Virus record (IMG/VR): IMGVR_UViG_3300027749_000055 | Span: 49,660-113,659 of that record | DNA from: a virus | Reading direction: 5' to 3' (one strand) | Length of the DNA: 64,000 nucleotides | Shown: positions 17,369-62,977 of the stretch, in pieces | Layout of the letters: each line of letters starts with the position of its first letter | Numbering within the stretch: position 1 is the first letter of the stretch | The notes under the pieces: model-generated | Databases searched by the model: none | What the model was told of the DNA's origin: nothing | Seen by the model: the letters and a program-made list of their open reading frames with translations, nothing else | Position numbers and translations under genes: made by a program

Positions 17369-20300
17369 TTACTCAGCCACCGTTTCGTAGTTCCATTTGT
17401 CCCTACCGCCCAATAAGACTATCTCACGCTCACTATAGCAACCCAACCCCGTTTCAGCACAGGAAAAGACTCGGCTAGCGGGCGCAACGCCGGAGAGAAC
17501 CATACCTTTATAGTCACTCCCTTGGGTCGAGAAAGTGCCGTCGGCAAACTTTTGGGCAACAATTGAGTCATACGAGAACGAACTCAGGGGACGGGTGGCG
17601 ATTTCGGGGAATCCGCCAGCACCCGTGATTTCATTGAATTCGTCTTCGAAAAATTCCATACCTCGATACAGCGGGACTTGGGTAATACCGTTCTTGGCAA
17701 GGTAGCCCTGCGTCTCGTCGTATTGAGCACGGAGAAAGGCTCGGTAGAGGTCGCCATTTTTGCTGTATTCGTCGTCTACTTTGTTGCCGTCTTCACCTTG
17801 CCATTCAGCCGTTTCCTTCAGACCAAACTCTTCGGCGGCGGCTTTTTGAATCGCCAAATTCTTTGTGGTTTCGTTTGAACCAATTGCCCACAAACTTACA
17901 AGTGCGCTTGCGCCAAGTTCGGCAAGCCGTTGCTTGATTCGAGGGTCGTCGCCGTGAACAACCTCAGTGCCATTTTCAACCGCTTGGTCTGCGTCGGATT
18001 CTTTCAAAAGATAGGGTGCTTCAAAACCTTCGTCCCCAATGCTTCTAAAGGTGTAGAGGGAGTCGTGGTCGAAATAAACCTGTGGCACAACATCAAAGTC
18101 GCCCGCAATAAAACCCTGTTCCAATAAATAAAACCGAGGGCAAGCCGTAGCAAGGCGGTCAGCCCATTTGTCCCCCATACGAGCGGCAATATTTTCCGCC
18201 ACTTTTTGCTTCAGTTCGGGCGCAACTTGTTCTGAATCTTCAGGTTCCATTGAGTCACGGTCAAAATCTTCGCCCTCGATTGCCACGCCAAGTTTGTCTA
18301 CGAGTGGAACCATTGCGTCGTAGGAATCAACGTGTGGGTCAATTTTCCCAAGGGATTCCCTGTGTCGTCCTGAACCAGGCCCGCCCTTGCGGACAGAAAT
18401 CAACTTTGTGTAGTCAGGATTACTTGTAGATTTGGTGATAAACACTTTGTTAGGCTTTCGCCAGACGGTATCTTCAAAACCCATAACACGGTTGTATTTG
18501 GGGTCTAGGCTTTCAGCAAAGTTCTTTCCCGCTTGTGAAGCAAAGCCACCGTGCAAAATTAAGGGCTTGTCCCCCATCATTTTTATTTGGTTTCGCATAG
18601 CGTCCACCATTTTGCGAGCAATACCCTGACCACGCACTTTTTCATCGGTCTGAATGTGCCAGATTTTCACCACAGGGCCTGCGATGTTTTTGTCACCCCA
18701 GTCATAGTGCGCTTTCGCTTGACCGATGATTACACCGTCTTTGTTGCGAACTTCCATACCAATACGGTCATCATTACCGTATTTTCCGTCACTAAGCAAT
18801 CCTTCGTCAGCCGTGATTTTGTATTCATTGCCATTCTCGTCTGTGAAGGTTCGTTCGCCCTCACCCGTCTTAGTCCACTGATTACCCTCAGGCTTACGAC
18901 CCGAACCAGGCCCGCCCTTACCAATCTCGACGGGGCTATGACCCTCTCCTTGGTCGGCGGTGAAGCGAGACTGCTTGGCTTCTTGGCGATTTGATTCCGC
19001 CTTGGCTTCTAATTGCGTCTTTTCACTACCCTGCGCTTGCTTGGCGGCTGTCGAGTAAAGACGAGCGGCTGATTCGTGAGCAAAAGCGGCTGAATCCCAC
19101 TTCTCCTTACGGCGCAAGTCCCACGCCCGTTGCTCAGCAGTTTGAGCGGCTTGCAAAGATTTGGAAACGTTTTGGCTGTTTTTTTTGACTTCTTTTGCTT
19201 GGTCTTCTTCAAATTGTGCGACAATTGCTAGGTAGTAAAGACGAGAGGCTTCGGTTTCGTTGCCATTTTCTTGCTCACGCTTGGCTTCTTCACGCAGTTC
19301 CGAGGCGGTCAGGTCGCCGTCTTTTGACCGAGCGGCTATTTTTGCAACATCAGCGATTTTACTATCGTCAAGAACCGTAATGTAGTTGGCGTTTGGAACT
19401 ACTGCCGATAGGTCGTAGACAAGGCTGTGGTTCTCATCACTATAAGTGCCTTCGCCTTCGTTCACATAGTAATAACCATTTTTGGCGTTGTTTCTGGTAA
19501 TTTGCCCACGCATACGGCTATTGGCTTGGTCATCACCAACGGGCGACCACACGCTGTTTTTCATACTTCCCGTAATAATCACGGGGGTAATATCGGGCTT
19601 GCTGTCCATAGCGATAGGGGTTCCGTCGGAGTAAACCGCTTCGCCTTGGTGGTCGGCGGGGTAGTGGGGAATTTGCGCCCAATCGTCCTCAGCACCGTAG
19701 CCAGCACCCGTTGAGACGATAAGCGTCTTGCCGTATTCCTCGGTTCCGTCCCAATCCTTACCGTCAGCCCGTCTGCCAATTCGTGCTTCAAGTGCGTCCT
19801 TTGCGGCTTTGTAGCCCCCAACGTGAACGCCGTAAGAGGCTTGTTTGAGTCCGATTTTGCCATTTGGAGAGCCGTGCCAAAAAACAGCGTGTGATTCTCC
19901 GTCGGGGGTGGTAATCATTTCGGGAAGGGCGTAAGTCAATTCGCCCCAGAGTCCGCCCAAAAATTTTCCGTATCGCTTTGCGCCATTTTCTTTGTGCCTA
20001 CCGCTGCCCGGCCCACCCTTTTCCACCTTGTCCAACTGAGCAACAACTTTCTTTGCCCACGAATAACCAGCGTCTCCGCCCCACGCATACCAAGCAACCT
20101 TGCCTGGGCTGGGTTCGTTCCAATGCGGGCTGTCCTTGTCGCCTTGGTGACGGTCAAAATACGCCTTCATACGGCGAATGGTGGTTTCCGATACTGACGT
20201 ACCACGGGCGAGGTCTGAGGCTCGCTTGCGTCCAACGGGGGTGAAGCCAGAGCCAGCCTTGCCGTCTTTGAGCCATTCCAACGCTTTTTTTCCAGCGTCT

Positions 20301-21037
20301 TGAACGCCCTGCGGGGGTGAGAACGTGTCGGATTTTTCCACGACGGCGAGGGCTTGAAACGCCTCAATCAACTTGCACAAGTTTTGGTAGAGGTTGATGA
20401 ACTTTTCTTCCATTCCCACAGATTCAAAGAAGTGGCTGAGGGTAATGATTTTGCAAAGGGTGAACTGCAAGGATTCTTCGTCTACGCCTCGGTTCCAAAG
20501 TTCCGCTACAAACTCCGGCGAAGGGGTGCGAGGACGGAAATTACACAAAGCGTGGTCAATGCCCACAATGCGCCCGTCGGAGGTAAAGATGACGTTCTTG
20601 GGTCGGCGGTCAGAGTTGGCGGTCAGGTAGTCAAAAAGACGCAGAGCGGTTCCCTGAGCGTTGTCGGGAATCTCCTTGTCTGCGTTTTTACCAGACTCGC
20701 CTTCAATGTAAGGCATAATCACCGTTGTAGCGTCCATAGAGGTAAAGAAGCAGTCTCGGACAGGTGCGTTCATTGCTTCGCCTACACGGGCAGCCAACCA
20801 CTCCTGCGTGGCAAGGAGTGGTGCGGGGTAGAAGCGACCCGTCTTATTACCAACCCAATCCTTCAGGACTTTCTCCACGCCGCCAGAGCCGTCGGCAAAA
20901 ATGACGAATTGGAAACCGTTATTTTGCTTACCCCCGAAGGTTCCCTCTAGGGGGTTGCGTCGAACTATGTTTGTATTGGTAAATGTAACAAAATTAGGCT
21001 GGAAAGTGCCGTCCACGGCTAACCCCGATTCAGCCAC
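17369..21037 (-). CDS. modular polyprotein: kinase-like, ART-like, GNAT and ADP-ribosyltransferase modules
   Basis: The 1222 residues are divided by three K-G-G-P-G-S-G-R motifs at 340, 707 and 884. Residues 1-240 resemble phosphatidylinositol/HipA-type kinases ('TANSDRRPKNVIF', 'IVGIDHALCNF'). A short helical phage domain follows ('DGKAGSGFTPVGRKRA'). Module 340-706 begins with an ART-like 'FWHGSPNGKIG...GVHVGGYKAAKDAL' and ends in long helices. Module 707-883 is a GNAT ('KIWHIQTDEKVRGQGIARKM'). Module 884-1222 is an ADP-ribosyltransferase: 'YRGMEF', 'RPLSSFSYDSIVAQKFADG', catalytic 'SEREIVLL'. Such enzymes suit proteins injected into the host or processed inside the head; that role is inferred. 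Confidence 0.8.
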   Translation of the reverse strand: MAESGLAVDGTFQPNFVTFTNTNIVRRNPLEGTFGGKQNNGFQFVIFADGSGGVEKVLKDWVGNKTGRFYPAPLLATQEWLAARVGEAMNAPVRDCFFTSMDATTVIMPYIEGESGKNADKEIPDNAQGTALRLFDYLTANSDRRPKNVIFTSDGRIVGIDHALCNFRPRTPSPEFVAELWNRGVDEESLQFTLCKIITLSHFFESVGMEEKFINLYQNLCKLIEAFQALAVVEKSDTFSPPQGVQDAGKKALEWLKDGKAGSGFTPVGRKRASDLARGTSVSETTIRRMKAYFDRHQGDKDSPHWNEPSPGKVAWYAWGGDAGYSWAKKVVAQLDKVEKGGPGSGRHKENGAKRYGKFLGGLWGELTYALPEMITTPDGESHAVFWHGSPNGKIGLKQASYGVHVGGYKAAKDALEARIGRRADGKDWDGTEEYGKTLIVSTGAGYGAEDDWAQIPHYPADHQGEAVYSDGTPIAMDSKPDITPVIITGSMKNSVWSPVGDDQANSRMRGQITRNNAKNGYYYVNEGEGTYSDENHSLVYDLSAVVPNANYITVLDDSKIADVAKIAARSKDGDLTASELREEAKREQENGNETEASRLYYLAIVAQFEEDQAKEVKKNSQNVSKSLQAAQTAEQRAWDLRRKEKWDSAAFAHESAARLYSTAAKQAQGSEKTQLEAKAESNRQEAKQSRFTADQGEGHSPVEIGKGGPGSGRKPEGNQWTKTGEGERTFTDENGNEYKITADEGLLSDGKYGNDDRIGMEVRNKDGVIIGQAKAHYDWGDKNIAGPVVKIWHIQTDEKVRGQGIARKMVDAMRNQIKMMGDKPLILHGGFASQAGKNFAESLDPKYNRVMGFEDTVWRKPNKVFITKSTSNPDYTKLISVRKGGPGSGRHRESLGKIDPHVDSYDAMVPLVDKLGVAIEGEDFDRDSMEPEDSEQVAPELKQKVAENIAARMGDKWADRLATACPRFYLLEQGFIAGDFDVVPQVYFDHDSLYTFRSIGDEGFEAPYLLKESDADQAVENGTEVVHGDDPRIKQRLAELGASALVSLWAIGSNETTKNLAIQKAAAEEFGLKETAEWQGEDGNKVDDEYSKNGDLYRAFLRAQYDETQGYLAKNGITQVPLYRGMEFFEDEFNEITGAGGFPEIATRPLSSFSYDSIVAQKFADGTFSTQGSDYKGMVLSGVAPASRVFSCAETGLGCYSEREIVLLGGRDKWNYETVAE

Positions 21038-21649: not shown

Positions 21650-23365
21650 TTAGCCGTAAACAACGTCGCCGTAGAAGACGAGTTGCCAGAAAGCGTCGTT
21701 TCCGATTGCGTCGGTGTCGTCCAGCGCACCAAGTCGTCCGGCATACTTATCGTTGTATGCAGAGTAGGCACGGGCAATGTCGCTCATATTGGCAGTCTTG
21801 ACTGCTGAGTGGTCGCCGTCGTCTCCCTTTTCGGGGTCGTCGCACTTCGCCGTGAACGTAACCTTCGACCAATCATCAGTCGGGCTGGGCTTGCCGTCTT
21901 CTCCAAGGACATTTTCTTGGGATTCGTAACCAACGGTTCCGGTGTCCTTGCCGTTCGAAATCTTGATTTCGCCAAACCAACTGCCCCAATACGACATATT
22001 GCTGCACACTCCGTCGAGCAACTCACGGGCGTTCACGGGGGTTGGAATAGTCATCTTGTCGCCATTGAAGGCGGGGGCGGCTTGACCCATTTGGCTGCTG
22101 ATACTCGGACTAGCCGTTTCGAGTTCCGCTAGGTCAAGACCTTCTTCGTCCGCAACAATCTTGATTGCGTCGTTGATTGCGTCCGACAACTTCCCAGACG
22201 ATTCAAGAAGAGACATACCGTTGTCGTCGCCCAAATATTCGTGGTCTGAGTCAGTGAGGGCGTAGTAAGGCCAATAATCAGGCATTTGCTCGTCCTGCAA
22301 GGCGGACAACTTTTCGTCAGTGTCGAAACCGGCGGCAATCAGTTCTTCGCCGTCTTGGGCTGCGCTGCCATTGGGAAGGGGTTGATACAGTTCGTGTTCA
22401 CTGCTAACCAAGTATTTTCTACCTGACGGGGCGGTAATGGTAGCCATTGTTGCGCCCGCAGGTTGAAACTCTGCCCACTGACGGTCAGGGTTTACGTCTT
22501 CGTTTATCTTCAACTTCATTCCCTTGGGGAGAGAAAATGAAGAAGCGTCTAGCGTTGCGCCCTCAGGCTTACGACCCGAACCAGGCCCGCCCTTGCGAAC
22601 CTTAGACTTGGCATACTCCGAAGGAACGTTACCTTCCCATTGTTCCGGCATTTCACTAGGGTCTGCCTTGACGAGTGACGCAATTGCCCTGTCGGTGGTT
22701 GCGTTTGCTTCCTCAGCGTTGGAAATAGCGTCGCCGTGGTCGTTTAGTGCGCCTTCTTCGTCGCCACCCTCGAACTTTTGAACGGCGGAGTTGGCGAGTT
22801 GTGAAGCCAGCGAGTGCAACTCGGCAGCCTGACCAAAGAGAGCCGAGGCACTGTTGAGGTCACGACCTGCCTGACCATTGGTGACGAGCGACCGTTGGAA
22901 CAGTTCATTCTCATTGCCCTTGCAAATGTCCGCAAGGCGGGCAGACTCGTCTGCCGCTTCCTTCAGTTCGTCGGTGTCTTGGGCGTATTGAATAGCGGTG
23001 GGCTGCATACTTGCCGACATTTGGATATCGCCCGTCGTGTATGCGCTAGGACGACGACCCGAACCAGGCCCGCCCTTAGAGACTTCCTCGTCCGGCCAGA
23101 CACCGTTCACCGGCAGAACGTAGTAGTCGTCGTAGTGGTGTTCGGAGTATTCGGGGTCGTCCTCGTCCGGCATTGGGTCGTTCTCGTAGATGTGACTCCA
23201 ACCGTCCTCGAATGAGGGGAAAGTCTTGCCACCGAAAAGGGTGTTGTTAGCCCAATCCTTGATGTGGAAAAGGGTCTTGGTGCGACCACTGCCCGGCCCG
23301 CCCTTGGTGAGCGGGAACTCCGCCTCGTTTATGAGGTTATCGGTAGTAAAGGGGTTGTAGGTCAT
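21650..23365 (-). CDS. K-G-G motif modular protein (571 aa, three motifs)
   Basis: Motifs start at residues 21, 97 and 258. The 20-residue leader begins 'MTYNPFTTDN' and ends 'EFPLT', like the leaders of the proteins at 60677 and 62240. Module 97-257 is helical and homologous to residues 21-180 of the protein at 60677 ('YTTGDIQMSASMQPTAIQY' against 'YTVNDIYMSATSLPNAIEY'). Module 258 onward is partly homologous to residues 462-608 of the protein at 57107 ('LKINEDVNPDRQWAEF' against 'LEIGNDDAKNPERQFAEH'). The last 150 residues have 'SNMSYWGSWFGEIKI', unrecognised. Probably a virion or head-associated protein. Confidence 0.75.
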   Translation of the reverse strand: MTYNPFTTDNLINEAEFPLTKGGPGSGRTKTLFHIKDWANNTLFGGKTFPSFEDGWSHIYENDPMPDEDDPEYSEHHYDDYYVLPVNGVWPDEEVSKGGPGSGRRPSAYTTGDIQMSASMQPTAIQYAQDTDELKEAADESARLADICKGNENELFQRSLVTNGQAGRDLNSASALFGQAAELHSLASQLANSAVQKFEGGDEEGALNDHGDAISNAEEANATTDRAIASLVKADPSEMPEQWEGNVPSEYAKSKVRKGGPGSGRKPEGATLDASSFSLPKGMKLKINEDVNPDRQWAEFQPAGATMATITAPSGRKYLVSSEHELYQPLPNGSAAQDGEELIAAGFDTDEKLSALQDEQMPDYWPYYALTDSDHEYLGDDNGMSLLESSGKLSDAINDAIKIVADEEGLDLAELETASPSISSQMGQAAPAFNGDKMTIPTPVNARELLDGVCSNMSYWGSWFGEIKISNGKDTGTVGYESQENVLGEDGKPSPTDDWSKVTFTAKCDDPEKGDDGDHSAVKTANMSDIARAYSAYNDKYAGRLGALDDTDAIGNDAFWQLVFYGDVVYG

Positions 23366-23374: not shown

Positions 23375-24193
23375 CTATCTCACAATCTTCTTTAGTTCAG
23401 CCTTGATTTCCTTCGCCTTGTCTCCACGCCACGTCGAAGCGTTGGCGAGGAAGTAATTGACGATTGACTTTGCGGAGTCAAGTCCATACTTGTCCGTAAC
23501 GTCGTTTAGGTCGCCCATAGCGTCGAGGTAGGGCTTTGCGCCAAAGAAAACCTTGGAACCCCAATCACGGCGAATTTCTGAAGCGATTTCACTGAGGGGG
23601 CGGTGTCCCGATTGGGTCATATTTCCAGCCTCAGCAGTGCGTCCCGAACCCGGCCCACCCTTTTTGACGGACATAGCGTCGAGTTGAGCAATGGCGGAGT
23701 CAAGAGCCTTACTCATATCCTTGGAAAAATCCACCCAACTTTGAGGGGTTTCGGGGTTATCAAGACGTTCTTGTGGCGAACCCCAACGCTTGTAGTCCTC
23801 GTTTATGTCGTAAAGAAAGCCTGACCATTCTTCGGGAGTCTCAATCTTGCTCACTCGCTTGTCGTTGAGATACATATCACGGTCAGAAACAATTTCGTCA
23901 AGTTCTTCGTGGTTAAAGTTTTCCTTCAGAACGTTAGCGATAGCAACGTCCGTGGTTCCAAGGCTCTTTTCCCATTGGTTGCCACGGAACGGGTGTCCGC
24001 CCGCTTCGCCCTTTTGGAAACGCTCTGCCTTTTGGAAGAACAGTTCAAGTTCGACAGGTGAAAAAAGTTCAGACACAGCAAACGTAGACTTGTGAACCTT
24101 CGCACCACGCCGAGGGCGAGGCTTGCGAGTAGTTGAGCGTGACGACTTACGAGCCGCCTTTGCCATAAAGTCTTCTAAGCGTTCTTCGGACAC
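23375..24193 (-). CDS. modular protein with basic N-terminus and K-G-G motif (272 aa)
   Basis: The first 35 residues are Lys/Arg/Ser-rich ('RKSSRSTTRKPRPRRGAKVHK'-like), suggesting nucleic-acid contact. Near residue 61 is a second kind of tag, 'KGEAGGHPFRGNQW', and at 178 the usual K-G-G-P-G-S-G-R. The C-terminal 80 residues ('LSEIASEIRRDW', 'DAMGDLNDVTDKYG', 'NASTWRGDKAKEIKAELKKI') form a helical domain I have seen in other phage structural proteins but cannot name. The GTG start at 24193 is less certain than an ATG at 24166. Confidence 0.65.
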   Translation of the reverse strand: MSEERLEDFMAKAARKSSRSTTRKPRPRRGAKVHKSTFAVSELFSPVELELFFQKAERFQKGEAGGHPFRGNQWEKSLGTTDVAIANVLKENFNHEELDEIVSDRDMYLNDKRVSKIETPEEWSGFLYDINEDYKRWGSPQERLDNPETPQSWVDFSKDMSKALDSAIAQLDAMSVKKGGPGSGRTAEAGNMTQSGHRPLSEIASEIRRDWGSKVFFGAKPYLDAMGDLNDVTDKYGLDSAKSIVNYFLANASTWRGDKAKEIKAELKKIVR

Positions 24194-24225: not shown

Positions 24226-25437
24226 CTAGGCGGACATAAAGCCGGTGTCGCCCATAACCCGACTCGTTTCACCACGGGTGGGGCTGGTCGCTGCTTCAGC
24301 GGAAATTCCAGCCTTCTCACGGCAAACGCCAGCCAAGTGCTTCGCACCATACGCCATATTACGAGCGTCGGCAGCCTTTTCCTTCCACTGCTCACCAAGT
24401 GCAGCGTCAGCGTCCTTGTGACCCTTGGCAGCCCATTCGAGGTGAGTGCCACCGAAACCGTGGGCGTGACCCTGAGCCAACATAAGCAACTTCGACGCTT
24501 CGTCATACTTCTCAGCAGCCTGAGCGTAAGTGTCCTTGCTCTTGGTCTTGTCGGCTTCGCTACGCAACTTGTCGGCAGAACGGAGAGCCTCACGACCAGC
24601 CTTGAAATTAGCCTCGTAGCCAGCCCCGTAGTTCTTGTTACGGGTCTTCCAGCCAACACGGACGGTCTTGCCCTCAGGAGTCTTCTCACGGGTGTTTACA
24701 AGTTCGCCTGTGTGCTGGTTGGCACGACCACCACCGTCGCCCTTGTGACGACCTGAGCGACCCTTCACGCCATACTTGGTGACGTTGATGTAGGACTGAA
24801 ATCCCGCCGACTTTTGGAAGTCACGGGTAAGAAGCGAAGAAGTGCTGAACGACTTAGAAAAATCTTCGTCCTCGTCGTAGTAGGTGTCCTCAGCCTGTGC
24901 AGGGAAACGACCCATTTGGCTTTCGTGAACCAAACCGTCGTTCAAACCTGAGCAGCACGGGCACGACGAGTCGCCGTCACCGAAGCAAAGGGGGCACATA
25001 ACCAAAACGGCTTCCTTGGCAAACTTCATTTCAATTCCTTTCGCTGCGGGCGCAGACTTAGTAATTTGGGGGGTTGATTCGCCCTTGGCAAAGTCACGCA
25101 GACCGCCAAGGATTTCCGAAGCCTTGGTGAACATTTCACCAGCCGCTTCGTGTGCCTTGTCTGCCTCACGGAAGCCAGCAAGTGCGTTGTTGTAAGCCTT
25201 CTTCAACTCGGTGGAGTTCCAAGCGTTCTTAGCCACCGCCTCGAAGTATGCGATTTCGGTAGCCTTCAGGTATTCCGTAGCCTTTTGGAGACGGAATGAG
25301 GTGTTTTCCAATTCGCCACGGGCGACCACTTCGTCACGGCTCGCTTTAGCAATTTGAGTGGCGGCGAGAACGGGGTCTGCTGAACCCTTCTGCACAAACG
25401 AGACAGTCTTGGGGGAACTGTTGGGAACCTGAATCAT
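24226..25437 (-). CDS. modular helical protein with zinc-finger and variant tag (403 aa)
   Basis: The N-terminal 120 residues are helical. Near 147-165 is 'CPLCFGDGDSSCPCCSG', a DnaJ-type C-x2-C ... C-x2-C cluster. Near 222 a divergent tag 'GVKGRSGRHKGDGGGR' stands where relatives have K-G-G-P-G-S-G-R-H. The C-terminal 150 residues hold 'AAEKYDEASKLLMLAQGHAH'-type His/Ala helices like those in the other modular proteins. It belongs to the same gene block, so a shared virion function is likely. Confidence 0.65.
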   Translation of the reverse strand: MIQVPNSSPKTVSFVQKGSADPVLAATQIAKASRDEVVARGELENTSFRLQKATEYLKATEIAYFEAVAKNAWNSTELKKAYNNALAGFREADKAHEAAGEMFTKASEILGGLRDFAKGESTPQITKSAPAAKGIEMKFAKEAVLVMCPLCFGDGDSSCPCCSGLNDGLVHESQMGRFPAQAEDTYYDEDEDFSKSFSTSSLLTRDFQKSAGFQSYINVTKYGVKGRSGRHKGDGGGRANQHTGELVNTREKTPEGKTVRVGWKTRNKNYGAGYEANFKAGREALRSADKLRSEADKTKSKDTYAQAAEKYDEASKLLMLAQGHAHGFGGTHLEWAAKGHKDADAALGEQWKEKAADARNMAYGAKHLAGVCREKAGISAEAATSPTRGETSRVMGDTGFMSA

Positions 25438-25496: not shown

Positions 25497-26657
25497 CTAG
25501 TTACCCTCTGCTTCGGAAGCGGCGTGTGAAGAGTCGGCTGCGCCGAATGAAGCACCGTCAGCGTCGTCGTGCAGGCTGTTCAAATACTCGTCTTCTTCGT
25601 CATCTGAGGTCTTCCACGCTCGACGGTGTGCCTCGGCTGCGTAGTGGTGCTCTTGAGCGGCTTCACGGTGCGCCTTGGCTACTTCCGGCTTGCCAGCAAC
25701 GTCGGCGGTCTGAGCGAGGATTTCGTGTTCCTTGGCAAGACCTTCGTGCTGTCGAGCGGCTTCGGCGGTGTAGGCGACCATTGTGTCGTCTGAGAGTTTG
25801 TCGGCTCGGTCAGCAATGTCCTTGGAAGCCTTCTTGGTGTAATCAGCGTCCTTGCCGGAGTCCTTTTTACCACCGCTGGTCTTGGACGAATTGCCCTTCG
25901 AACCCTTTGGGTAACGACCCGAACCCTCACCGCCCTTGGTGACGGAGGCTGAGGCTGACCGCATAGCGGCTGACTGCATAACGGGGGCTAGTGAGCGTGA
26001 AGCGATGGTTTGGATATAGTCGGCAACATTTTCGGCTGCGTATCGCTTTGCGTTTTCCAAAGTAGGCCCGACGGGAGTGTGTTCGAAAAACTTGCTTGGC
26101 TTCCCAGCCTCACTGACGGTGAAATAACCGCTGACGTAACCACGGGCGGGACGACCATTATCGCCAAGTGATTGCTGACTACGGTAGGTAATCGTCAAAT
26201 CGTGACCAGCAACGGCAGCACCTTGGGAGTCGCCATTCTTCATTTGGGTCAGTGAGCCAACAAAAAGTCGAATCGGGGTCATTTCGAGGATATTTGCACC
26301 CTCGGCGTGACGACCTGAACCCGCACCACCCTTGGCGACCATATATTCACCGTTGTAGATAAGGGTGGACTTGTCGTTAGCGTCCATACCAGCACCAAAC
26401 ATTGCGCCAGCGGCTTCGAGCAGTTGGGCACGGTTGGCGGGGTTCACCTCGACGGCTCGAACAAGGTCATCACGGCAGGAAAAGAACTCCGCAGAAGCGG
26501 TCAGCATAAGGTTGCTCGCCTCACGGATTTCACCATTGGCGTAAGCGGCTTCGGCAAACTTCATCAACGACGCACCGAGTTCAGCCTTCTTCTGAGCGTT
26601 AGCAAGCACCGAGTTCAGGCTGGCTGCGCCGTGATTCTTATTGACATTCTTCATCAT
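25497..26657 (-). CDS. K-G-G motif modular protein (386 aa, two motifs)
   Basis: Motifs K-G-G-A-G-S-G-R-H at residue 109 and K-G-G-E-G-S-G-R-Y at 241 split three parts. Part 1 is helical ('SLMKFAEAAYANGEIREASNLM'-like). Part 2 is a beta-rich domain ('PIRLFVGSLTQMKNG', 'TITYRSQQSLG'). Part 3 is a His/Ala helical module ('RQHEGLAKEHEILAQT', 'AHREAAQEHHYAAEAHRRA') with an acidic tail. No enzyme motif is seen. It is 6 bp from the gene upstream. Confidence 0.7.
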   Translation of the reverse strand: MMKNVNKNHGAASLNSVLANAQKKAELGASLMKFAEAAYANGEIREASNLMLTASAEFFSCRDDLVRAVEVNPANRAQLLEAAGAMFGAGMDANDKSTLIYNGEYMVAKGGAGSGRHAEGANILEMTPIRLFVGSLTQMKNGDSQGAAVAGHDLTITYRSQQSLGDNGRPARGYVSGYFTVSEAGKPSKFFEHTPVGPTLENAKRYAAENVADYIQTIASRSLAPVMQSAAMRSASASVTKGGEGSGRYPKGSKGNSSKTSGGKKDSGKDADYTKKASKDIADRADKLSDDTMVAYTAEAARQHEGLAKEHEILAQTADVAGKPEVAKAHREAAQEHHYAAEAHRRAWKTSDDEEDEYLNSLHDDADGASFGAADSSHAASEAEGN

Positions 26658-26663: not shown

Positions 26664-27578
26664 TTACGCTTGACCGTCACGACGGACGGCTTCTTCAAAG
26701 TCTTTGTCGGCACGGGCGGGAACGCCTCGAAGGTCGGCTGCCTTGGCACTGCGCTGAACCCACGACGGGTGAAGGGTGGAAACATCACGGAGTGAAGCCG
26801 CAAGTCCACCGTGGCGAAGGTTGGCAGAACCGTGTTCCTTGATTGCTTTTTCCAAAGAAGGCAGGACTTCGGGCGATACTTTGTCTCGCATAGCCATAAG
26901 AGCCTTTTTCACGCCGACGTGTGCGGCGGCTACGTCACGGTGGTAGGCGTAAACCTCGTCCTCGTCACGCATATTGTGAGGCTTACCCAACTTGCTGTCC
27001 AAAAGAGTCTTGGCGTTCTTGTAGTTGTCGTAGCCGTGAGGGGTGCGACCAGAGCCAGGCCCACCTTTACGGAGAGCCGACTTGTGGGCGTATCCAAAGT
27101 AGCCACTCAGGTCAGCGACGGGAGGCTCGACGGTGGCGGGGGGTGCGGTGGGCATTTCACGCTCAATGAGGTCAATAAGGCTGTTGGTCACATCTGCGCT
27201 GTCTCGAAAGAGACGAGCGGTGTCGTAGTTGTCTACCATTGAGTGAAAGTATGCGTCGTTACGCATTTTGCTCACATCTTCACGCATTTCGGCAATGTGC
27301 TGGCTCAAAGGCTTCGAGTATGCCGCCTCAATGCGGTCTGCCATTGAGGTAGCAGTGCGACCAATTCGTGCATTTTGACGGCGAACCTGACCAATAATCG
27401 TGTCGCCGTATTCGGGCTTGTATCGGTTGCCGAGAACGTCGGTCTTGGGTCGCTTGCCGGTGCGGGGGGAGTCCCAATCGTTTGCCTTGGCTTCGGCGGC
27501 GATAGCACGAAGACGGGCAACCGCTTGTGCGTGTCGCCCAGAGCCAGGCCCGCCCTTAGTGAATTCGAACTTAGACAT
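26664..27578 (-). CDS. K-G-G motif modular protein (304 aa, two motifs)
   Basis: The ATG at 27578, after AAGGATAATT, is preferred to an upstream TTG-type frame. This leaves only a 7-residue leader 'MSKFEFT' before the first motif at residue 8. The second motif at 171 is preceded by 'HKSALR', matching the K-S-x-(V/L)-R context seen before other internal motifs. Both modules are helical and basic, with no known domain. The short leader shows that the motif itself, not a folded N-domain, is the conserved element. Confidence 0.7.
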   Translation of the reverse strand: MSKFEFTKGGPGSGRHAQAVARLRAIAAEAKANDWDSPRTGKRPKTDVLGNRYKPEYGDTIIGQVRRQNARIGRTATSMADRIEAAYSKPLSQHIAEMREDVSKMRNDAYFHSMVDNYDTARLFRDSADVTNSLIDLIEREMPTAPPATVEPPVADLSGYFGYAHKSALRKGGPGSGRTPHGYDNYKNAKTLLDSKLGKPHNMRDEDEVYAYHRDVAAAHVGVKKALMAMRDKVSPEVLPSLEKAIKEHGSANLRHGGLAASLRDVSTLHPSWVQRSAKAADLRGVPARADKDFEEAVRRDGQA

Positions 27579-27580
27579 AA

Positions 27581-28039
27581 TTATCCTTCCAAAGAAACAG
27601 AGAGTTGCCACGCCCACTTGGAGTGAGCGTCAATTCGGTCTGCCAAAAAGTTAGCAATGCCTTGCTCGTTGAGCGATGTTGCCATATCAAAAGCGTCCTT
27701 CAGGCTTTCCAAAACGCCTTCATTTGTGCGAAGAAGGTCGTCCACAAGGTTCTGGGCAGTGAAATCGTCTACGGGGCTGTTGTCCACCGAAGAAAAGGCG
27801 GTGAGCGCAGAAAACGTAAAGGGTGCAAAAACACCGACCTTGCGAATGTTCTCCGCTAAGGGGTCAATGCTGTCGTAAACGTCCTCGTAGATTTCCTCAA
27901 ACTTGCTGTGCCACTGCGGGAAGTCACCACCGACCACGTTCCAATGGAAGCCGTGGACACGGTGATACATAATCGTCACATTGGCTAAGCAGGTGCTTAG
28001 CAAGTCCCCAAGGGGTGCGCTCTCCTTACGAATACGCAT
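27581..28039 (-). CDS. Dps-like ferritin
   Basis: The 152-residue protein has the Dps pattern 'LANVTIMYHRVHGFHWNVVG' with the ferroxidase His, 'FPQWHSKFEEIYEDVYDSIDPLAENIR' with the D-x3-D/E ligands, and a C-terminal 'FLADRIDAHSKWAWQLS' helix. Dps proteins form 12-mers that oxidise iron and some bind DNA. It is embedded between two K-G-G motif genes (3-bp gaps) but lacks the motif. It might protect DNA in the capsid or infected cell from Fenton damage; that is inferred. Confidence 0.85.
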   Translation of the reverse strand: MRIRKESAPLGDLLSTCLANVTIMYHRVHGFHWNVVGGDFPQWHSKFEEIYEDVYDSIDPLAENIRKVGVFAPFTFSALTAFSSVDNSPVDDFTAQNLVDDLLRTNEGVLESLKDAFDMATSLNEQGIANFLADRIDAHSKWAWQLSVSLEG

Positions 28040-31848: not shown

Positions 31849-32009
31849 AACTTCTCCCACTATGCGTTTACTAAAATGCTACTGCGTGTTTCCAAAACAA
31901 ACGGTCTATGCCCGTGGTTGCCGTGCCTTTAGAGCGGTAGCGGGAGAGACACGGCGAAGGGTTGTGCGATTCTTCTTGGGTTGTGCGCTTACTTTACGAA
32001 AACGTAGGG

Positions 32010-43082: not shown

Positions 43083-43465
43083 AGGTCTTCTACAAATTCG
43101 TCGGGCTTGCCCCAACTCCAACCAAACGGTTCTTTGAGCGAAAATAAAACCAAGATTTGCGCTGTCTCGTCTTGATATTCGCTGCCGATTACTTCGATGG
43201 CGGGCACTTTGCCGAAGTGGGCAATTTCCAAAGCGTCCTCAGGAACCTTGTCACCGGAAAAACTGATACCCAACGGTGCGGGTCGAATGGGTAGGTATTG
43301 AAATTCGTCCCAATCGTCCTCGCTCTCCCAGCCAGCCTTAGCCGCAAGATTTTCTGCCGTCTCGGTGTCGTGCGCTTCGCCTAGCGTCACCTCATAAACA
43401 ATGAAACCGTCGGCATTTGTTCGCACGACCACGGCGTTTTCGTTTGAGAGGGTTAGATAGTTCAC
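43079..43465 (-). CDS. hypothetical protein upstream of Mom-like gene (128 aa)
   Basis: An acidic protein of beta strands and helices ('VVVRTNADGFIVYEVTLGEA', 'ILVLFSLKEPFGWSWGKPDE'). It is translationally coupled to the Mom-like gene, so it could be a partner or regulator. It does not resemble Mu Com, which is a zinc-finger translational activator. No family recognised. Confidence 0.6.
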   Translation of the reverse strand: MNYLTLSNENAVVVRTNADGFIVYEVTLGEAHDTETAENLAAKAGWESEDDWDEFQYLPIRPAPLGISFSGDKVPEDALEIAHFGKVPAIEVIGSEYQDETAQILVLFSLKEPFGWSWGKPDEFVEDL

Positions 43466-56062: not shown

Positions 56063-57097
56063 TTACTTGTAGACGTGGTGCGACAACTTCTTGTCGGGGA
56101 ACGTTCCGTATGCCTTGCCGGTAGCGGGGTCGGTAATTCCAACAATGTTTCCCTTGCCCATAAACCTGTTGGTCTGGTCGTGCTGGAAGGAAACAACGTC
56201 GCCAATCTTTTCGTCGCTGCCTTGACGCTCGATTACACGGGTGAAGATAGTCCCGTTGGGTCGGTAGCCCTGAACAACAATGTGCTGCTCTGCGGGGCTG
56301 AATCCGTAAGGCTCGTTCTTACCCGTGCCCTCTTCGAGAGTGCGGGGGTTCACCATTCCGTCGGGGAGGGTGGGGTTGCCACGGTAGTAAAAACTACGAG
56401 GGCCGGTGTGGTATTCGGGGGAACCCGTGCGGAAGAACTCCCCACGCTCGGCGGAGGTCAGGTCTTCTTCGGCAACGTCGGTCATTCGAGTAACGGTTGC
56501 GGTGCGCCCAGAACCAGGCCCGCCCTTCGTCACCGTTGAATCCTCGACGTAATAGGGGAAGGTGTTACCTTCGGGGTGTTCCGAAACGTAGCGAGCAATA
56601 CGGCTTGCGGTGGCGGCGTCGGCACTGGCGGCAAAAGCCTTAATCATTTCACTATCGGAAGGGTTTGCCAATCGTGTAACTTCCTTCCAAGCGTCTGCGG
56701 CGTCTAGGTGCGCCGCAGCAGCAGCGTAGTGAGCCTTACTTGCGTCGGTTTGGAACATTTCACCTGTGTAGTCAAAGTTGCGTGACGGGGCATACAAGTT
56801 TGCCCCTTCGATAGCGTGTGCCTTTAGAATTTCAGTGTGTTCCCTAGCCATATCCGACGCTTCGGCTCGGATTTCCGCAGGGGTCTGGTCTTCAAGACCA
56901 ATGTTGTCGTGGGCGTTTTCAAGGATAGCCGCAGAGTGGTCGGCAAGAACCGAGGGGACGGAAGGCTCTTCACCCGAAGCGAGACGAGAGACTTCCCACG
57001 TCGTCAGATTTTCGGCGTAGTGGTTGGAGTGATTGGCGTGGCGACCTGAGCCCTGTCCGCCCTTTGCAATTTGTCCGGTTCCTTGTGAAAAGTCCAT
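56063..57097 (-). CDS. K-G-G motif modular protein (344 aa, two motifs)
   Basis: The leader is 11 residues ('MDFSQGTGQIA') before K-G-G-Q-G-S-G-R-H at 12; the second motif is at 191. Module 12-190 is a His/Ala helical bundle ('AAAAHLDAADAWKEV', 'DMAREHTEILKAHAIEG'). Module 191-344 is beta-rich ('AEQHIVVQGYRPNGTIFTRV', 'KIGDVVSFQHDQTNRFMGKG') and unrecognised. Resembles the set at 17-30 kb, so a shared role is expected. Confidence 0.7.
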   Translation of the reverse strand: MDFSQGTGQIAKGGQGSGRHANHSNHYAENLTTWEVSRLASGEEPSVPSVLADHSAAILENAHDNIGLEDQTPAEIRAEASDMAREHTEILKAHAIEGANLYAPSRNFDYTGEMFQTDASKAHYAAAAAHLDAADAWKEVTRLANPSDSEMIKAFAASADAATASRIARYVSEHPEGNTFPYYVEDSTVTKGGPGSGRTATVTRMTDVAEEDLTSAERGEFFRTGSPEYHTGPRSFYYRGNPTLPDGMVNPRTLEEGTGKNEPYGFSPAEQHIVVQGYRPNGTIFTRVIERQGSDEKIGDVVSFQHDQTNRFMGKGNIVGITDPATGKAYGTFPDKKLSHHVYK

Positions 57098-57106: not shown

Positions 57107-59959
57107 TTATCGCTTGTCTTCGCCAAATGAAACGTTTACATACATACCAGCGTTGTAGGCGACTTCGCCCACTTCGTCGGCATACACGTCGGTCTGCTCA
57201 CCCTTGACGTTCACCTTGCCCGCACGGACGTTCACACGCTGAACGGTGTAGGTGTCGTTGTCTGCGAGGTAGACACGAACCTTGTAGCCGTGTCCAATAG
57301 GGAGTTCAATGCCAACGGGCTTGTTCTTCTCCGTGAGGACGCTAACTCGACCACCGCTCAAACCAAGAATGTTCATCTTTCCAATTTGAGCGACGGTGGT
57401 TTGCGGGTCAAAGTCACGGTGTCCGCAGTTGCTAGGCATACCCGTCTCAGGGTGTCGTCCCGAACCCGGCCCGCCCTTTCGGACGCTGGACTTTCCCAGC
57501 ATTTCCTGACGGTCAAGCCACGCACCAACTGACGACTGCTTGTAGTCAGCGGGGCGGCTAGGGGCTTGGGTGGCACGGTAAATCTCGTCCTGCGTCACAC
57601 TGTCGGCAGTGTAAGCAAGTTCGTTTGCTTGGTTTGCCATTTCTTCCAACTGCTCGTCGGTGTAATTTCCAAAGTTGCCCTTGGAAATCAAGTCGTTAAA
57701 AGCCTGCGCCGCAGCGAGGTGAGCGTCGGCAGAAGCGGTGAAGCCTTGCTCACGAAGTTCCTCAGAAAGTTCTTCGTGGTCACTAGCGGTGGCACTAATG
57801 GAGTCCTCAAAGTCGTTCCATTGGTGTCCGTCGCCAAGATTGGTGTTGATAGCGTCGCTCATCAAAGCGAGACGAGTCGGCTCGTCAATACCTTTACCCT
57901 GAGCCTCAGACATTGCTTCGGCTCGGTCAGTGATTTCAGCCTTGCTACGTCCGTCGCTGGTGCGGGTGTATCCGTAGTTGTTCAAGTGGTCGTTGAAAGC
58001 GTCGGTGTGCGCCTGACCTGCGGGCGAAGTGTCTTCCTGACCCTCGCTACGAGTGTCGTGGTAGTTCGACATAGCCCCGCCGGAATACTTGCCAGCCCAA
58101 CCTTGGGGGTGACGACCTGAGCCAGGCCCACCCTTTCGAAGTGCGGACTTTTCAGTGCTTTCGCCTTCCTTTGCCATTTCAATAGCGGCTTCGATTGCTT
58201 CTTGTGCGGAACTATAGGCGTCGCCGTAAAAATCGCCGTCAGGATTTCCAACTTCAAACCAAGGGTTTAAACTAACAAGGTCGTTATCGTAAAGTTCGTT
58301 AAGTTGGTCGTCATTGACGATACCGGCACTAAAAAGGTCGTTTGCGCCGTGTGCTTGGTTTCCGTCGGGAAGTTCAATGCTCGTTTCACCAACCGCATAA
58401 ACGGTGAACGCATCTCCGTTTTCGTTTTCAACCCAAGCAACGGGTTGATTTTGTGGGTAGTGTTCCGCAAATTGCCGCTCAGGGTTCTTTGCGTCGTCGT
58501 TTCCAATTTCGAGCGTTATGCCTTCCGGCACGTCAAAAGAAATCTCGGCGTGACGTCCAGAGCCAGGCCCGCCCTTAGTGAAAACCCTGTCGGTGCGTCC
58601 ACGAACCATATCCTTAGCCGAGTAGACGTGCATTACCGTCTCTTGAAGGTTGTAGGCACGATTAGCCCACGTCCGAGCCTGCTTGTCGTAGGCAATGTGG
58701 TTGATTGGGTCGAGTGAAGCGGCAACTCGGTAGTGACCCGCAATCATATTTGCGAGGTGAGCCAACTTTTCGTTGGAATCTTTATTACCGTGAAGACTAA
58801 CTTCGTGAAATTCCTTCTCCAACTTGTTAGCGTTAGTGATTGCCTCGTCACGCTTGGCTGCCATTTCCTTTGCAGTCATCTTCGAGGAAGGCTGGTTGTA
58901 ATTACGCATATTAAACTTGGAAGAGAAGTCTTCCTTGTGACGACCAGAACCAGGCCCGCCCTTCTTCACCTTTTTTGCAGACTTCACAAATTGGTCAGTG
59001 GTAATCGGGCCACCCTTGTTGTCGCCTTCGGTGAAGTAAAACGCTTGTCCGTCCGTCACGCCACCCTTGTCTCCCGAAGTGGCGGCGTATGAAGCGTTCA
59101 CAGCCTTCACAGTGTTCTCGACGCTGGGATTGTCGGCGGCTGCGTAGTGGGCACGGGCGGCTTCGTCGTGCAACTCAGCCATACCCTTCCAATCGGGATT
59201 ATCGCTTTGAGCGTTGTCGGCAATCATTTGTAGGAAGCCGACGTGATTGCGGAGACGACCAGCCTCTTCAACGTGGCGACGAGCCTGCGAATCGTGACGC
59301 ATAGGCGAAACCTTGCCGTTCGCCTTCTGAACGTCCATATACATACGAGCGGCGGTGTCTTGAATTTTTTGCAAAGCCGCAGCAGTTTCGTGAGAAGTGC
59401 GCTCAGGGTGACGACCAGAGCCTTCGCCACCCTTAGTGACTCCCTGTTCCGCCCTTACCTCGGCATACTTGGCTCGCTTTTGAGCGCAGTCTGCTTCTGA
59501 GGTGCAAGGTGCGTCGCCGTGCATTTTGTGCCAATTGTCGTGGTCTTGGTCGTGGCGCATAACGGTAGCAAGTGACTCACTAGCGTCTTTGGCTACAAAC
59601 TTTTGTAGTCCAAAGTGGTTAGTGTATTTTTCAGCAAAGTCACTTTGCGCTTGTGCGATACTGCCTCCCTTTTCCCACGAATCCCTAGCGGCGGCGTGTG
59701 CTGAAGCGGCTTTGTAGGCAATGTTTGACCCCGTAATGTCGCCACGCTTATCAGCCTTGCGAGCCTCCACAACCAAACGGTTGATTTCTCTCTGGTGATA
59801 CTGCGCCTTTGGGTTGGAATAGCGTGTCTTAGCCTCGCCAAATCCAGCCGCAACGGTGTCGTCTGAACTGCGCTCGGCGTGACGTCCTGAACCTTTGCCA
59901 CCCTTCAAGATTTCACTAACCCACTGCTCAGCAGCCTTCTGAATACGGTCTTGTGCCAT
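57107..59959 (-). CDS. K-G-G motif modular protein (950 aa, six motifs)
   Basis: This has the most motifs: residues 19, 176, 333, 462, 609 and 828. The leader 'MAQDRIQKAAEQWVSEIL' is an amphipathic helix like that at 60619. Most modules are His/Ala-rich helical bundles of 130-220 residues ('EAGRLRNHVGFLQMIADNAQ', 'AADAHLAAAQAFNDLI'). Module 462-608 is homologous to the third module of the protein at 21650. Motifs at 609 and 828 are preceded by 'EKSALR' and 'GKSSVR'. It reads as a string of separable units. Confidence 0.75.
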   Translation of the reverse strand: MAQDRIQKAAEQWVSEILKGGKGSGRHAERSSDDTVAAGFGEAKTRYSNPKAQYHQREINRLVVEARKADKRGDITGSNIAYKAASAHAAARDSWEKGGSIAQAQSDFAEKYTNHFGLQKFVAKDASESLATVMRHDQDHDNWHKMHGDAPCTSEADCAQKRAKYAEVRAEQGVTKGGEGSGRHPERTSHETAAALQKIQDTAARMYMDVQKANGKVSPMRHDSQARRHVEEAGRLRNHVGFLQMIADNAQSDNPDWKGMAELHDEAARAHYAAADNPSVENTVKAVNASYAATSGDKGGVTDGQAFYFTEGDNKGGPITTDQFVKSAKKVKKGGPGSGRHKEDFSSKFNMRNYNQPSSKMTAKEMAAKRDEAITNANKLEKEFHEVSLHGNKDSNEKLAHLANMIAGHYRVAASLDPINHIAYDKQARTWANRAYNLQETVMHVYSAKDMVRGRTDRVFTKGGPGSGRHAEISFDVPEGITLEIGNDDAKNPERQFAEHYPQNQPVAWVENENGDAFTVYAVGETSIELPDGNQAHGANDLFSAGIVNDDQLNELYDNDLVSLNPWFEVGNPDGDFYGDAYSSAQEAIEAAIEMAKEGESTEKSALRKGGPGSGRHPQGWAGKYSGGAMSNYHDTRSEGQEDTSPAGQAHTDAFNDHLNNYGYTRTSDGRSKAEITDRAEAMSEAQGKGIDEPTRLALMSDAINTNLGDGHQWNDFEDSISATASDHEELSEELREQGFTASADAHLAAAQAFNDLISKGNFGNYTDEQLEEMANQANELAYTADSVTQDEIYRATQAPSRPADYKQSSVGAWLDRQEMLGKSSVRKGGPGSGRHPETGMPSNCGHRDFDPQTTVAQIGKMNILGLSGGRVSVLTEKNKPVGIELPIGHGYKVRVYLADNDTYTVQRVNVRAGKVNVKGEQTDVYADEVGEVAYNAGMYVNVSFGEDKR

Positions 59960-59971
59960 TATTTTTCCTTT

Positions 59972-60619
59972 TTAGCGGTAAGCGTCACGGTATTTGCCTG
60001 TGACGTTCAGGCGGTAATACGGGGGAAGAGTGTGGGATACTTTGCCATCGTAATAAACATCTTTGGCTGGCATTTTTTCCATAGTTCCGACATAACCCTT
60101 TTCAGCAAGGGCTTGACCAAGAACCATAAGTTCCTTCTTCTGGTCAAGCAAAGAAAGTTCTTCGCTTTGTCGTGTCCAGCCCCTGATTCCCACGGTAAGG
60201 CTCGCACCCTCTTGAGTGTATGTGCCCTGTGAATCAACGGTAAATCTGTGCCAGCCTCGGTAGTAGTCGTCGCTTCCGTTTCGTGCCGCATAACCCAAGC
60301 GATTACCCTCAACCCTGATTGACGAAATCACAGTAGATAGACGGCTTGCTTCACGGGTGATACCCGTGTTCTGCGAGTGATTGGAAACCGTTTGAACCCA
60401 ACCACGATTTCGCCCTCTGTCAATAATGAACTGATTAGATTTTGCGTCCTGCTCGCCAAAGTGGACAAAATCAAACCTACTCTCGTCCTTGAACTTGGCG
60501 GGAGTTTCTCCCATTGAACGCAGTTCGGGCTGTTTGGTGGCGTGACGACCACTGCCCGGCCCACCCTTGGTGATTTCACCAAGCCAGATTTCAATTGACT
60601 TTTCAATACGGTCAGACAT
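59972..60619 (-). CDS. K-G-G motif protein with single module (215 aa)
   Basis: The leader 'MSDRIEKSIEIWLGEIT' precedes the only motif at residue 18. The single module is alpha/beta ('RFDFVHFGEQDAKSNQFIID', 'GWHRFTVDSQGTYTQEGASL') and not recognised. It shows that leader plus motif plus one domain is the minimal unit. A perfect palindrome at 60566-60583 encodes 'GEIT' just before the motif. Confidence 0.7.
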   Translation of the reverse strand: MSDRIEKSIEIWLGEITKGGPGSGRHATKQPELRSMGETPAKFKDESRFDFVHFGEQDAKSNQFIIDRGRNRGWVQTVSNHSQNTGITREASRLSTVISSIRVEGNRLGYAARNGSDDYYRGWHRFTVDSQGTYTQEGASLTVGIRGWTRQSEELSLLDQKKELMVLGQALAEKGYVGTMEKMPAKDVYYDGKVSHTLPPYYRLNVTGKYRDAYR

Positions 60620-60676: not shown

Positions 60677-62224
60677 TTAGAGGGTCGCAACAGAAGCGGC
60701 AATAGCCTTTTCTGAAGCGTCTGCGGCAGCACCAGACAAAGCCGTGTAAGCGGCGTTGTCCTTTCCAGCCATTTGCAGGACAGAGGCAGCCCCGTCGTGA
60801 AGTTCGGCAGCCTTCTGGTGAGCAGCAATCGCCGTCATTTCACTGTCGCCGTAAAAACGGCTTGGGGTGTTCATCATTTCACGGTGGAGGTCGGCAGCCG
60901 TGGCGTGGTCATCGTCTGCCACTGCCTCACGGATAGCCTCATCACGACCACCAAGGAGTTCGCTTTGAGCCGAAGCAATGTTGGCTTGTTCAATTGAATC
61001 CATAAGGTCTGAAATTGAGTCGTCAATGTCCGAAATAGCACCACTAAAGTCTTCCAAAGCCGACGAAGCGTCGTCCAAGTTTTCCCGTGCGCCGTCAAAG
61101 TCTCCATTATCAGACCAACCGTCAATAGTGTCTTCGTCGTATTCGCTAAGGATTTCAGAGAAGCCTTTTGCGTAGGAAGCACCACGCTCGGTAGCGGTTC
61201 CAAAGTCGTCAATAGCCGAGTGTGCGGCTTCGAGAGCGGTTTCAACCGAACCAACAAAATCAGGGAAGGCTTCTTGGAATTCTTCGTCGTAGTGAATCGC
61301 TCTTTGGATACTGTTAAGAACGCTCGTCATATCGTTTACGCCGTAATTGTTCAGTTGGCTAAAGTTTGATTGAGCGTCCAACGCAGAACTTGAAGCGTTG
61401 GAAAGTGCGCTTTCCCAATCGTCCCGTGCGCTCGTCATATCATCTACACGCTCGTCTTGGTTGTCGTAATCTTCTTCTTTGGCTGCTTCTAAAGCGTCAG
61501 AGGCACTTTCCATATCACTGATGTAACCCTCGGTGTCGTCAATGTTTGATTCAACGTTGCTTCCCAAGTTTTCACTAAGATTTTCGTGAACTTCATTGCC
61601 TAAAGCAAGGGCACTTTCAATACCAGAAACGTCCGGCATTGCAATAGAACCCTCTTTGTGGCGTCCAGAACCAGGCCCGCCCTTACGAACAACCGACTTA
61701 GCGAGTTGTTCCGCCATTGACGGGTCGTCTCCCCAATATTCGGGGGTTTCTTCGGGCGACATAACCGAATGACGAGCCACTGCCTTTTCGGTGTATGCGG
61801 CAGCCTTGTCTGACTCTGCCATTGCGCTCTCGATTGCACGGTGAGTTCTAGATGAAATGTTGTCTTCGTTTGCGCCCTTGTCCTTCGACAAAATGTCGGC
61901 AGCACGGTGAGCGGCGAGAGCGGCTGTGTCGTGTGCAAGGGCGGCTTGACGGTAAGAAAAAGCAACTTGTTGAGCGTTCGCATTGTTTTCCATTTCGCTT
62001 GCCTTGGAACGGCACTCAGCGGCGAGTTGTTCGTGTTCGTCGGCTGCCCGCTCAATCTCGTTAGCGTTGCCATACTCGATAGCGTTGGGCAGGCTGGTAG
62101 CCGACATATAGATATCGTTCACGGTGTAACCGTTACCGTGTCGTCCCGAACCAGGCCCGCCCTTCTTGACGGGGTAGTTGCTCAACCTTGGAACAAGGCT
62201 CTTCATTGAAAAAGGATTGGTCAT
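60677..62224 (-). CDS. K-G-G motif modular protein with long coiled coil (515 aa)
   Basis: The leader starts 'MTNPFSMKSLVPRLSNYPVK' and the motif is at 21; the second is at 181, preceded by 'AKSVVR'. Module 21-180 is homologous to residues 97-257 of the protein at 21650, including its C-terminal boundary ('PEETPEYWGDDPS' against 'PSEMPEQWEGNVPS'). Residues 190-400 are a long acidic coiled coil ('NIDDTEGYISDMESASDALE'), and the end is again His/Ala helical. No enzyme motifs. Confidence 0.72.
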   Translation of the reverse strand: MTNPFSMKSLVPRLSNYPVKKGGPGSGRHGNGYTVNDIYMSATSLPNAIEYGNANEIERAADEHEQLAAECRSKASEMENNANAQQVAFSYRQAALAHDTAALAAHRAADILSKDKGANEDNISSRTHRAIESAMAESDKAAAYTEKAVARHSVMSPEETPEYWGDDPSMAEQLAKSVVRKGGPGSGRHKEGSIAMPDVSGIESALALGNEVHENLSENLGSNVESNIDDTEGYISDMESASDALEAAKEEDYDNQDERVDDMTSARDDWESALSNASSSALDAQSNFSQLNNYGVNDMTSVLNSIQRAIHYDEEFQEAFPDFVGSVETALEAAHSAIDDFGTATERGASYAKGFSEILSEYDEDTIDGWSDNGDFDGARENLDDASSALEDFSGAISDIDDSISDLMDSIEQANIASAQSELLGGRDEAIREAVADDDHATAADLHREMMNTPSRFYGDSEMTAIAAHQKAAELHDGAASVLQMAGKDNAAYTALSGAAADASEKAIAASVATL

Positions 62225-62239
62225 TTCACTACTCTCTCT

Positions 62240-62977
62240 TTACTTGCCGTGTCGGGTTGCTGCGGCTGTCTCGGACAATGCTTGTTGAGCAAGTTTCTCA
62301 ATACGGTCAAAGTGTTCCTTCTTGGCGGTTCCGCTCTCTACACGACGAGCAAGACCGGCGAGCGCACGGGAGGCAGCGGCATTGGCGGCGGCTGCGTCAG
62401 AGTGATACGCCGAGTGATACGCCGAGTCACCGTCACGGCGACCCACGGCACGGTGAAGTTGAGCCAACTGCGAGTGCAGTTCGGCAGCCTTCATCAACGC
62501 CTTGGCAGACAATCCGTCGGCATACCAAGTGTGACCAACCTCGTCGGCTTTGTCGGCAACTCGGTCAATGCGGTCAAGTGCTTGCGGGAGAGTAGTGCGA
62601 CCAGAGGGCTTGCGACCTGAGCCAACTCCGCCCTTTGCCACTATTGAACCGGCTTCCTTGGCACGGAAGTTTTCAATCAGTTGCTTAGCCGAAGCGAGGC
62701 TCGAAGGGAAGAGGCGAGAAACAGCGTCGGCTGAACGGTCAGAGTAAGGCTCTTGACGGTCTGCAATTCGAAAATCGTTCTTCGAGATTTGCGTGATAAA
62801 GAAACGCTCGTTCGACGACTGCCACGTCTTGCGACCACCCAGACCGTCGAGAGCCTTCCACTTCAGGGGCTTCAATGCACCCGAACCAGCGGTTCGTCCA
62901 CTGCCCACGCCACCCTTGGAGACGGGGTAGCGACTCAGGGTCGGGTTCAGTTCTTCGGGCGAAAACGGGTTAGGCAC
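62240..62977 (-). CDS. K-G-G motif modular protein (245 aa, two motifs)
   Basis: The leader 'MPNPFSPEELNPTLSRYPVS' is 20 residues and matches that of the gene at 60677. Motifs K-G-G-V-G-S-G-R at 21 and 115. Module 21-114 is small and mixed ('FFITQISKNDFRIADRQEPY'); module 115-245 is a His/Ala helical bundle ('AAELHSQLAQLHRAVGRRDG'). First gene of the right-hand modular operon. Confidence 0.7.
   Translation of the reverse strand: MPNPFSPEELNPTLSRYPVSKGGVGSGRTAGSGALKPLKWKALDGLGGRKTWQSSNERFFITQISKNDFRIADRQEPYSDRSADAVSRLFPSSLASAKQLIENFRAKEAGSIVAKGGVGSGRKPSGRTTLPQALDRIDRVADKADEVGHTWYADGLSAKALMKAAELHSQLAQLHRAVGRRDGDSAYHSAYHSDAAAANAAASRALAGLARRVESGTAKKEHFDRIEKLAQQALSETAAATRHGK

Follow-up and report, generated by a model that had tools for sequence, protein, structure and literature searches.

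Eleven phage proteins carry copies of the motif KGGxGSGR, and these copies are probably sites of the phage's own head (prohead) protease, which, inside the prohead, would strip a targeting leader from the cargo and split cargo polyproteins into their modules. The motifs are most likely cutting sites because the residues upstream of them match the cutting habit of the head protease of the same phage, and do so across unrelated phages. From the sequences we infer the cut itself, the exact bond, packaging and injection. Cleavage would explain the motif of hundreds of uncultured phage proteins. If true, the motif would mark proteins that are packaged in the head and probably injected; raw sequence would suffice to predict the cargo as well as the specificity with which head proteases cut, and phage effectors would be carried as head-matured polyproteins, in a T4-like manner that relies on a standard part open to exchange.

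The window (the whole stretch of DNA analysed, 64,000 nucleotides) is positions 49660–113659 of a 113,659-base virus record. Within it, 11 minus-strand ORFs between 17369 and 62977 hold exactly 27 copies of KGGxGSGR, as had been counted in the original prediction, and the variable residue x is P, A, E, V, Q or K, again in agreement with it. When all ORFs of 70 aa or more were shuffled 300 times with their composition preserved, no copy appeared. Six further genes with 11 further copies are found in the same record beyond the window, so that the whole 113.7-kb record encodes 17 proteins with 38 copies. The genes concerned are listed below in window coordinates.

32010–33680, minus strand: portal protein (Portal_Mu / phrog_113; PF06074 9.2e-33, phrog_113 1.4e-84)
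30346–31860, minus strand: XkdF-like head protease, 504 aa (PF14550, E 9.4e-10; S78_2 domain at about 30409–30771)
28042–29973, minus strand: putative cargo polyprotein, leader MTDSFTKTVEQWLNVAK and 3 modules; motif K codons start at 29925, 29433, 28641
27581–28039, minus strand: ferritin/Dps-like protein (PF00210 2.1e-15), without the motif, within the cargo operon
26664–27617, minus strand: putative cargo polyprotein, leader MSKFEFTK and 2 modules; motif 27557, 27068
25497–26657, minus strand: putative cargo polyprotein; motif 26333, 25937
24226–25437, minus strand: cargo-operon protein without canonical motif; leader-like MIQVPNSSPKTVSFVQK|GSAD and five Phi-x-K-[GS] sites
23375–24193, minus strand: putative cargo polyprotein, one type B cassette (FQKGEAGGHPFRGNQW) and one KGGPGSGR (23662)
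21650–23365, minus strand: putative cargo polyprotein, leader MTYNPFTTDNLINEAEFPLTK and 3 modules; motif 23305, 23077, 22594
17369–21037, minus strand: putative cargo polyprotein, 1222 aa; motif 20020, 18919, 18388
62240–62977, minus strand: putative cargo protein, leader VPNPFSPEELNPTLSRYPVSK; motif 62917, 62635
60677–62224, minus strand: putative cargo protein, leader MTNPFSMKSLVPRLSNYPVKK; motif 62164, 61684
59972–60619, minus strand: putative single-module cargo protein, leader MSDRIEKSIEIWLGEITK; motif 60568
57107–59959, minus strand: putative cargo polyprotein, 950 aa, leader MAQDRIQKAAEQWVSEILK and 6 modules; motif 59905, 59434, 58963, 58576, 58135, 57478
56063–57097, minus strand: putative cargo protein, leader MDFSQGTGQIAK; motif 57064, 56527
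9827–10846, minus strand: major capsid protein (phrog_1005, 1.4e-92)

Six of the 11 genes are found in the interval from the XkdF-like protease gene to the capsid gene, where most of them had been placed, but the other five form a second cluster at 56.1–63.0 kb. The first cluster is flanked by the portal and S78_2 protease genes on one side and by the capsid gene on the other. Since the record continues outside the window with further motif genes at its opposite end, the second cluster may join up with the cluster there if the genome is circular. A short leader ahead of the first copy, expected for most of the proteins, is present in 8 of the 11 (8–22 aa, depending on the start codon). The exceptions are the proteins encoded from 25497 (about 110 aa ahead of the first copy), 23375 (the type B copy precedes the KGGxGSGR copy) and 17369 (a 340-aa module precedes the first copy). 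The protein at 24226–25437 has a degenerate motif, KYGVKGRSGRH, at the place where its relative in L009 has KGGPGSGRR, and is possibly processed in the same way minus the GSGR tail.

The motif can be extended to Phi-x-K-G-G-x-G-S-G-R, Phi (P3) being V, I, L or F in 38/38 copies. The K-S-x-(V/L)-R context attributed to the internal copies is real, occurring at 6 copies in the window, but is not found at all internal ones; among relatives, KS is enriched upstream of internal copies (26/107 versus 9 expected, with a maximum of 18 in 500 shuffles). At the DNA level the 38 copies comprise 36 distinct 24-mers, codons for the invariant residues differ synonymously in 57% of comparisons, and the motif Ser is encoded by both TCN and AGY codons. 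As the codons vary freely while the residues stay fixed, selection acts on the peptide. A recombination signal or recently spread repeat acting as DNA, to which the many copies in one genome and the exchange of modules might point, was rejected on these grounds and has a negligible probability.

Three kinds of tail were distinguished among phages: A (GGxGSGR), B (GDxxGHxFxGNQW) and C (GGxGSGNFGHxGRPGxxGGS). The residue before GG is nearly constant within a phage and varies between phages, being K, E, D, N or A/L. In a search of virus contigs for type C that left this residue free, 39 loci had at least two copies, and the residue agreed in 124 of the 146 same-locus pairs, compared with 30.7 expected and a maximum of 51 in 2000 shuffles. 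Each class has its own context: [LI]-x-E|GG for E, [RK]-x-[AL] for A/L and often [ILV]-N for N.

Whole records were then searched for S78_2, S78, S77 and Mu-type head proteases. The K set consisted of 48 records, L203 and L207 having been removed from 50 as chance matches (the scan with VRKGG..GSGR gave such matches, L203–L207, except for L011). S78_2 was detected in 24/48 of these records and S78 or S78_2 in 28/48, while S77 and the Mu type were found in none of the 48; many K records had no detected protease, and many are fragments. By contrast, S78_2 and S78 were each found in 0/48 non-K records, three of which, all of the L class, had the Mu type and one, of the E class, S77. The difference in S78/S78_2 between K and non-K gave Fisher values of 3e-11, or 4e-8 when the non-K side was limited to records of 25 kb or more; these values overstate independence because records within a class share ancestry. 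In random viral contigs S78_2 was found in 3/41. In a forward test, E-class contigs were sought by a new pattern: S77 was present in 4/8 E-class records of at least 25 kb versus 0/93 others, and S78_2 in 0/23 records searched of this set. The three Mu-type matches look like one lineage and three of the four S77 matches score alike. In the D and N classes none of S78_2, S78, S77 and the Mu type was found; in L394, an A/L phage, the cassette genes have a gene for a head maturation protease as their neighbour. In independent phages, cargo genes follow S78_2 immediately downstream. L209 has its S78_2 domain inside a 1429-aa polyprotein that bears the motif, and cassettes flank the domain on either side, one of them 12 residues beyond it.

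Cutting in silico at K|G yielded 414 modules. Among these, 709 homologous pairs (<90% identity) were identified, 177 of which align end to end; 89 of the 177 are in different architectures and 62 pair a stand-alone protein with part of a polyprotein. Since modules align end to end across architectures, the piece between cassettes is the unit of exchange. For example, L119 and L153 encode the last module of the 23375–24193 protein as a gene of its own, modules 2 and 3 of the 21650–23365 protein have paralogues in the 60677 and 57107 proteins, and module 6 of the 57107–59959 protein is the first module in L218 and the lone module in L169. Leaders such as MTNPFHIDNLDPIGKSASRILK|GG and MSGFTTNELLYPLTK|GD likewise recur ahead of unrelated cargo: two leader families, both also carried by the window phage, front 42 modules representing 26 homology groups. 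Co-variation of P1 with the protease, module boundaries and stand-alone homologues thus strongly support the processing sites suggested in the original prediction, and point to cleavage.

The other two suggestions made there fare less well. A mere flexible linker easing module shuffling would suit the Gly-rich sequence, the additional Gly with which type B often continues and the clearly shuffled modules, but a plain linker needs neither invariant K, S and R nor a fixed hydrophobic P3, and leaves the phage-specific, protease-following residue before GG unexplained; we consider it very improbable. An uncut tag for capsid targeting or packaging, to which scaffold, portal or DNA would bind, is unlikely, though less so. 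It fits the leader before the first motif, to which the targeting-sequence features belong, better than it fits the motif. The motif genes do sit amid head genes, a type B tail occurs in an annotated internal head protein of one cultured phage, and the GGxGSG tail is kept despite differing proteases, which hints at a role apart from the scissile bond. However, one copy per protein would be enough for a tag, whereas up to six are present, exactly at module boundaries, and the residue before GG switches with the protease family.

For processing by the head protease we propose the following steps. The cargo proteins would be made with a short N-terminal leader, which most likely directs them to the prohead in the manner of the T4 capsid-targeting sequence. 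After prohead entry the protease would be activated, and the S78_2 (XkdF-like) enzyme would remove the leader and cut at every internal K|GG, between K and GG, with a hydrophobic P3, Lys at P1 and Gly at P1'. The head would thereby hold separate modules, several of them enzyme-like; DNA would be packaged after cutting, and the modules probably delivered into the host with it. The G-G-x-G-S-G tail downstream of the cut would be the constant part of the cassette and the upstream residues the part fitted to the protease of the phage.

Alt of T4, one of its head-packaged effectors, is an ADP-ribosyltransferase, and the window phage has an ART-like module that would be packaged too. The predicted processing also resembles that of the T4 internal head proteins IPI–III and Alt, which gp21 cuts, in having a short leader on unrelated cargo and a fixed residue before the cut. 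T4 gp21 (S77) cleaves after Glu, and the T4 leader uses separate residues for targeting (4, 7) and for processing (8, 10) (PMC9026906). The [LI]-x-E|GG relatives carry S77, like T4, whereas the window phage has Lys at P1 and an S78_2 protease. Unlike in T4, the cargo here is a polyprotein of up to 6 modules with a fixed GGxGSGR tail after the cut. In HK97, the S78 protease cuts gp5 at K103/S104 (PMC10275583). The sequence at this site, FNK|SLG, follows the Phi-x-K pattern, and the internal copy VFNKSKVRKGG of the 28042–29973 protein includes FNKS as well. As with HK97 gp4 (S78), Phi-x-K precedes the cut and the protease gene adjoins the portal gene; thus the E-class and K-class cassettes match the specificities of T4 gp21 and the HK97 protease, respectively. 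Unlike HK97, in which a scaffold domain is cut off the capsid protein, the predicted substrates here are cargo; no N-terminal pro-domain site was found in the major capsid protein, and the Pfam family is S78_2, not S78. The ejection proteins of the giant phages SPN3US and phiKZ are similar in that head propeptides are removed by the prohead protease, at several sites each (PMC10052503, PMC5694885), but the cuts there follow A-x-E or S-x-E, and most substrates are single proteins that carry an N-terminal propeptide and no repeated cassette.

In the protease (30346–31860), an acidic, Ser/Asp-rich N-terminal part of about 350 aa precedes the S78_2 domain, in which D, H, G and S are invariant across 19 homologues. 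This N-terminal part recalls protease-scaffold fusions, and no separate scaffold is obvious. Two Phi-x-K-S sites are located just before the domain, LLQK|SEL and QIRK|SDE; IRKSDE was dropped as a cleavage site because it aligns with the conserved Phi-x-K-x-D of the S78_2 domain itself, leaving LLQK|SEL as a candidate. A fold search with a model of S78_2 (pLDDT 74) gave no significant PDB match, and XkdF has been called unrelated to SH proteases (PMC7824862); for both reasons the HK97 parallel is one of sequence pattern only.

Most cargo modules matched no named family in domain searches. The 1222-aa protein consists, in order, of a kinase-like N-terminal part (weak), a phrog_2859 domain (7.9e-32), module 1, a GNAT module (PF00583, 6.6e-5) and an ADP-ribosyltransferase-like module. 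The last (about 17372–18385) has an invariant YRG...ExE; its best fold matches are ADP-ribosyltransferases, weak (E 0.11), and a weak DRAT match was obtained with a paralogue. A DUF3626 module is present outside the window. In being multidomain, effector-like and encoded near head genes, these proteins resemble the polyvalent proteins (Iyer et al. 2017, PMC5512222), in which ART and GNAT domains have been reported (PMC7824862). Unlike in polyvalent proteins, no zincin-like peptidase or MuF domain was found in the 11 motif proteins (Pfam, E 0.1), and modules are set apart by a standard putative cleavage cassette that suits the head protease, a feature that the descriptions of polyvalent proteins, as far as consulted, do not mention (PMC5512222, PMC7824862). 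For polyvalent proteins that contain metallopeptidase domains, processing at some stage other than before packaging has been proposed (PMC5512222), and the present polyproteins might similarly travel intact and be cut only after injection, by a phage protease or another enzyme. This is very improbable as well, as the enzymes that co-vary with the motif belong to the head proteases, whose place of action is the prohead, and the motif proteins have no detected zincin.

Cleavage alone does not explain why phages with different types of protease all keep the GGxGSG tail; perhaps the tail exposes the site, has a role as the new N-terminus, or persists by exchange of whole cassettes between phages. 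It is reasonably probable that GG-x-G-S-G is a portable maturation module shared by many phage groups, with the upstream residues rewritten to suit each recipient protease (S78_2/S78, S77, Mu type, others). If so, effector modules could be swapped between phages with unrelated head proteases, and the cassette sequence alone would reveal the cleavage specificity of uncharacterised proteases. In the relative L006, KGDVKGHPFHGNQYTS replaces KGGPGSGRHTE of the window phage, behind a leader matching that of the G000 2215–5244 protein, and hybrid cassettes occur in L024 (KGGPGSGRPFRGNQ) and in the window (KGGPGSGRKPEGNQW). In type B, P3 is hydrophobic in 235/239 copies, the search pattern having left it free; in GGxGSGNFGH cassettes with K, P3 is V, I or L in only about half.

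The cassette strings were not found in the literature text searched. The motif is absent from the nearest cultured relatives by portal and protease (Arthrobacter Laroyevirus) and, where inspected, from phages sharing the phrog_2859 domain. A short-peptide tblastn against cultured phages yielded nothing beyond one weak match of type B, to Xanthomonas phage Rb1 (E 0.8), whose 'internal head protein' (L355:9808–13473) contains VALDGDFSGHPFRGNQH, a type B tail with D replacing K. Scans of prokaryote genomes gave no match for type B and 21 loci for type C; these loci (L357–L377) are prophage-like, mostly from Clostridia and mostly with D before GG.

Three other genes in the window may be mentioned. 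The product of 10867–11619 is assigned to head scaffolding by PHROG (phrog_673), its Gly/Ala/Thr-rich sequence being more like that of a head decoration protein. The gene at 14803–16035, between the capsid gene and the cargo cluster, encodes a fusion of a family 2 glycosyltransferase with TPR repeats, and that at 42117–43121 encodes a Mom-like DNA modification protein (phrog_1384, 2.2e-18).
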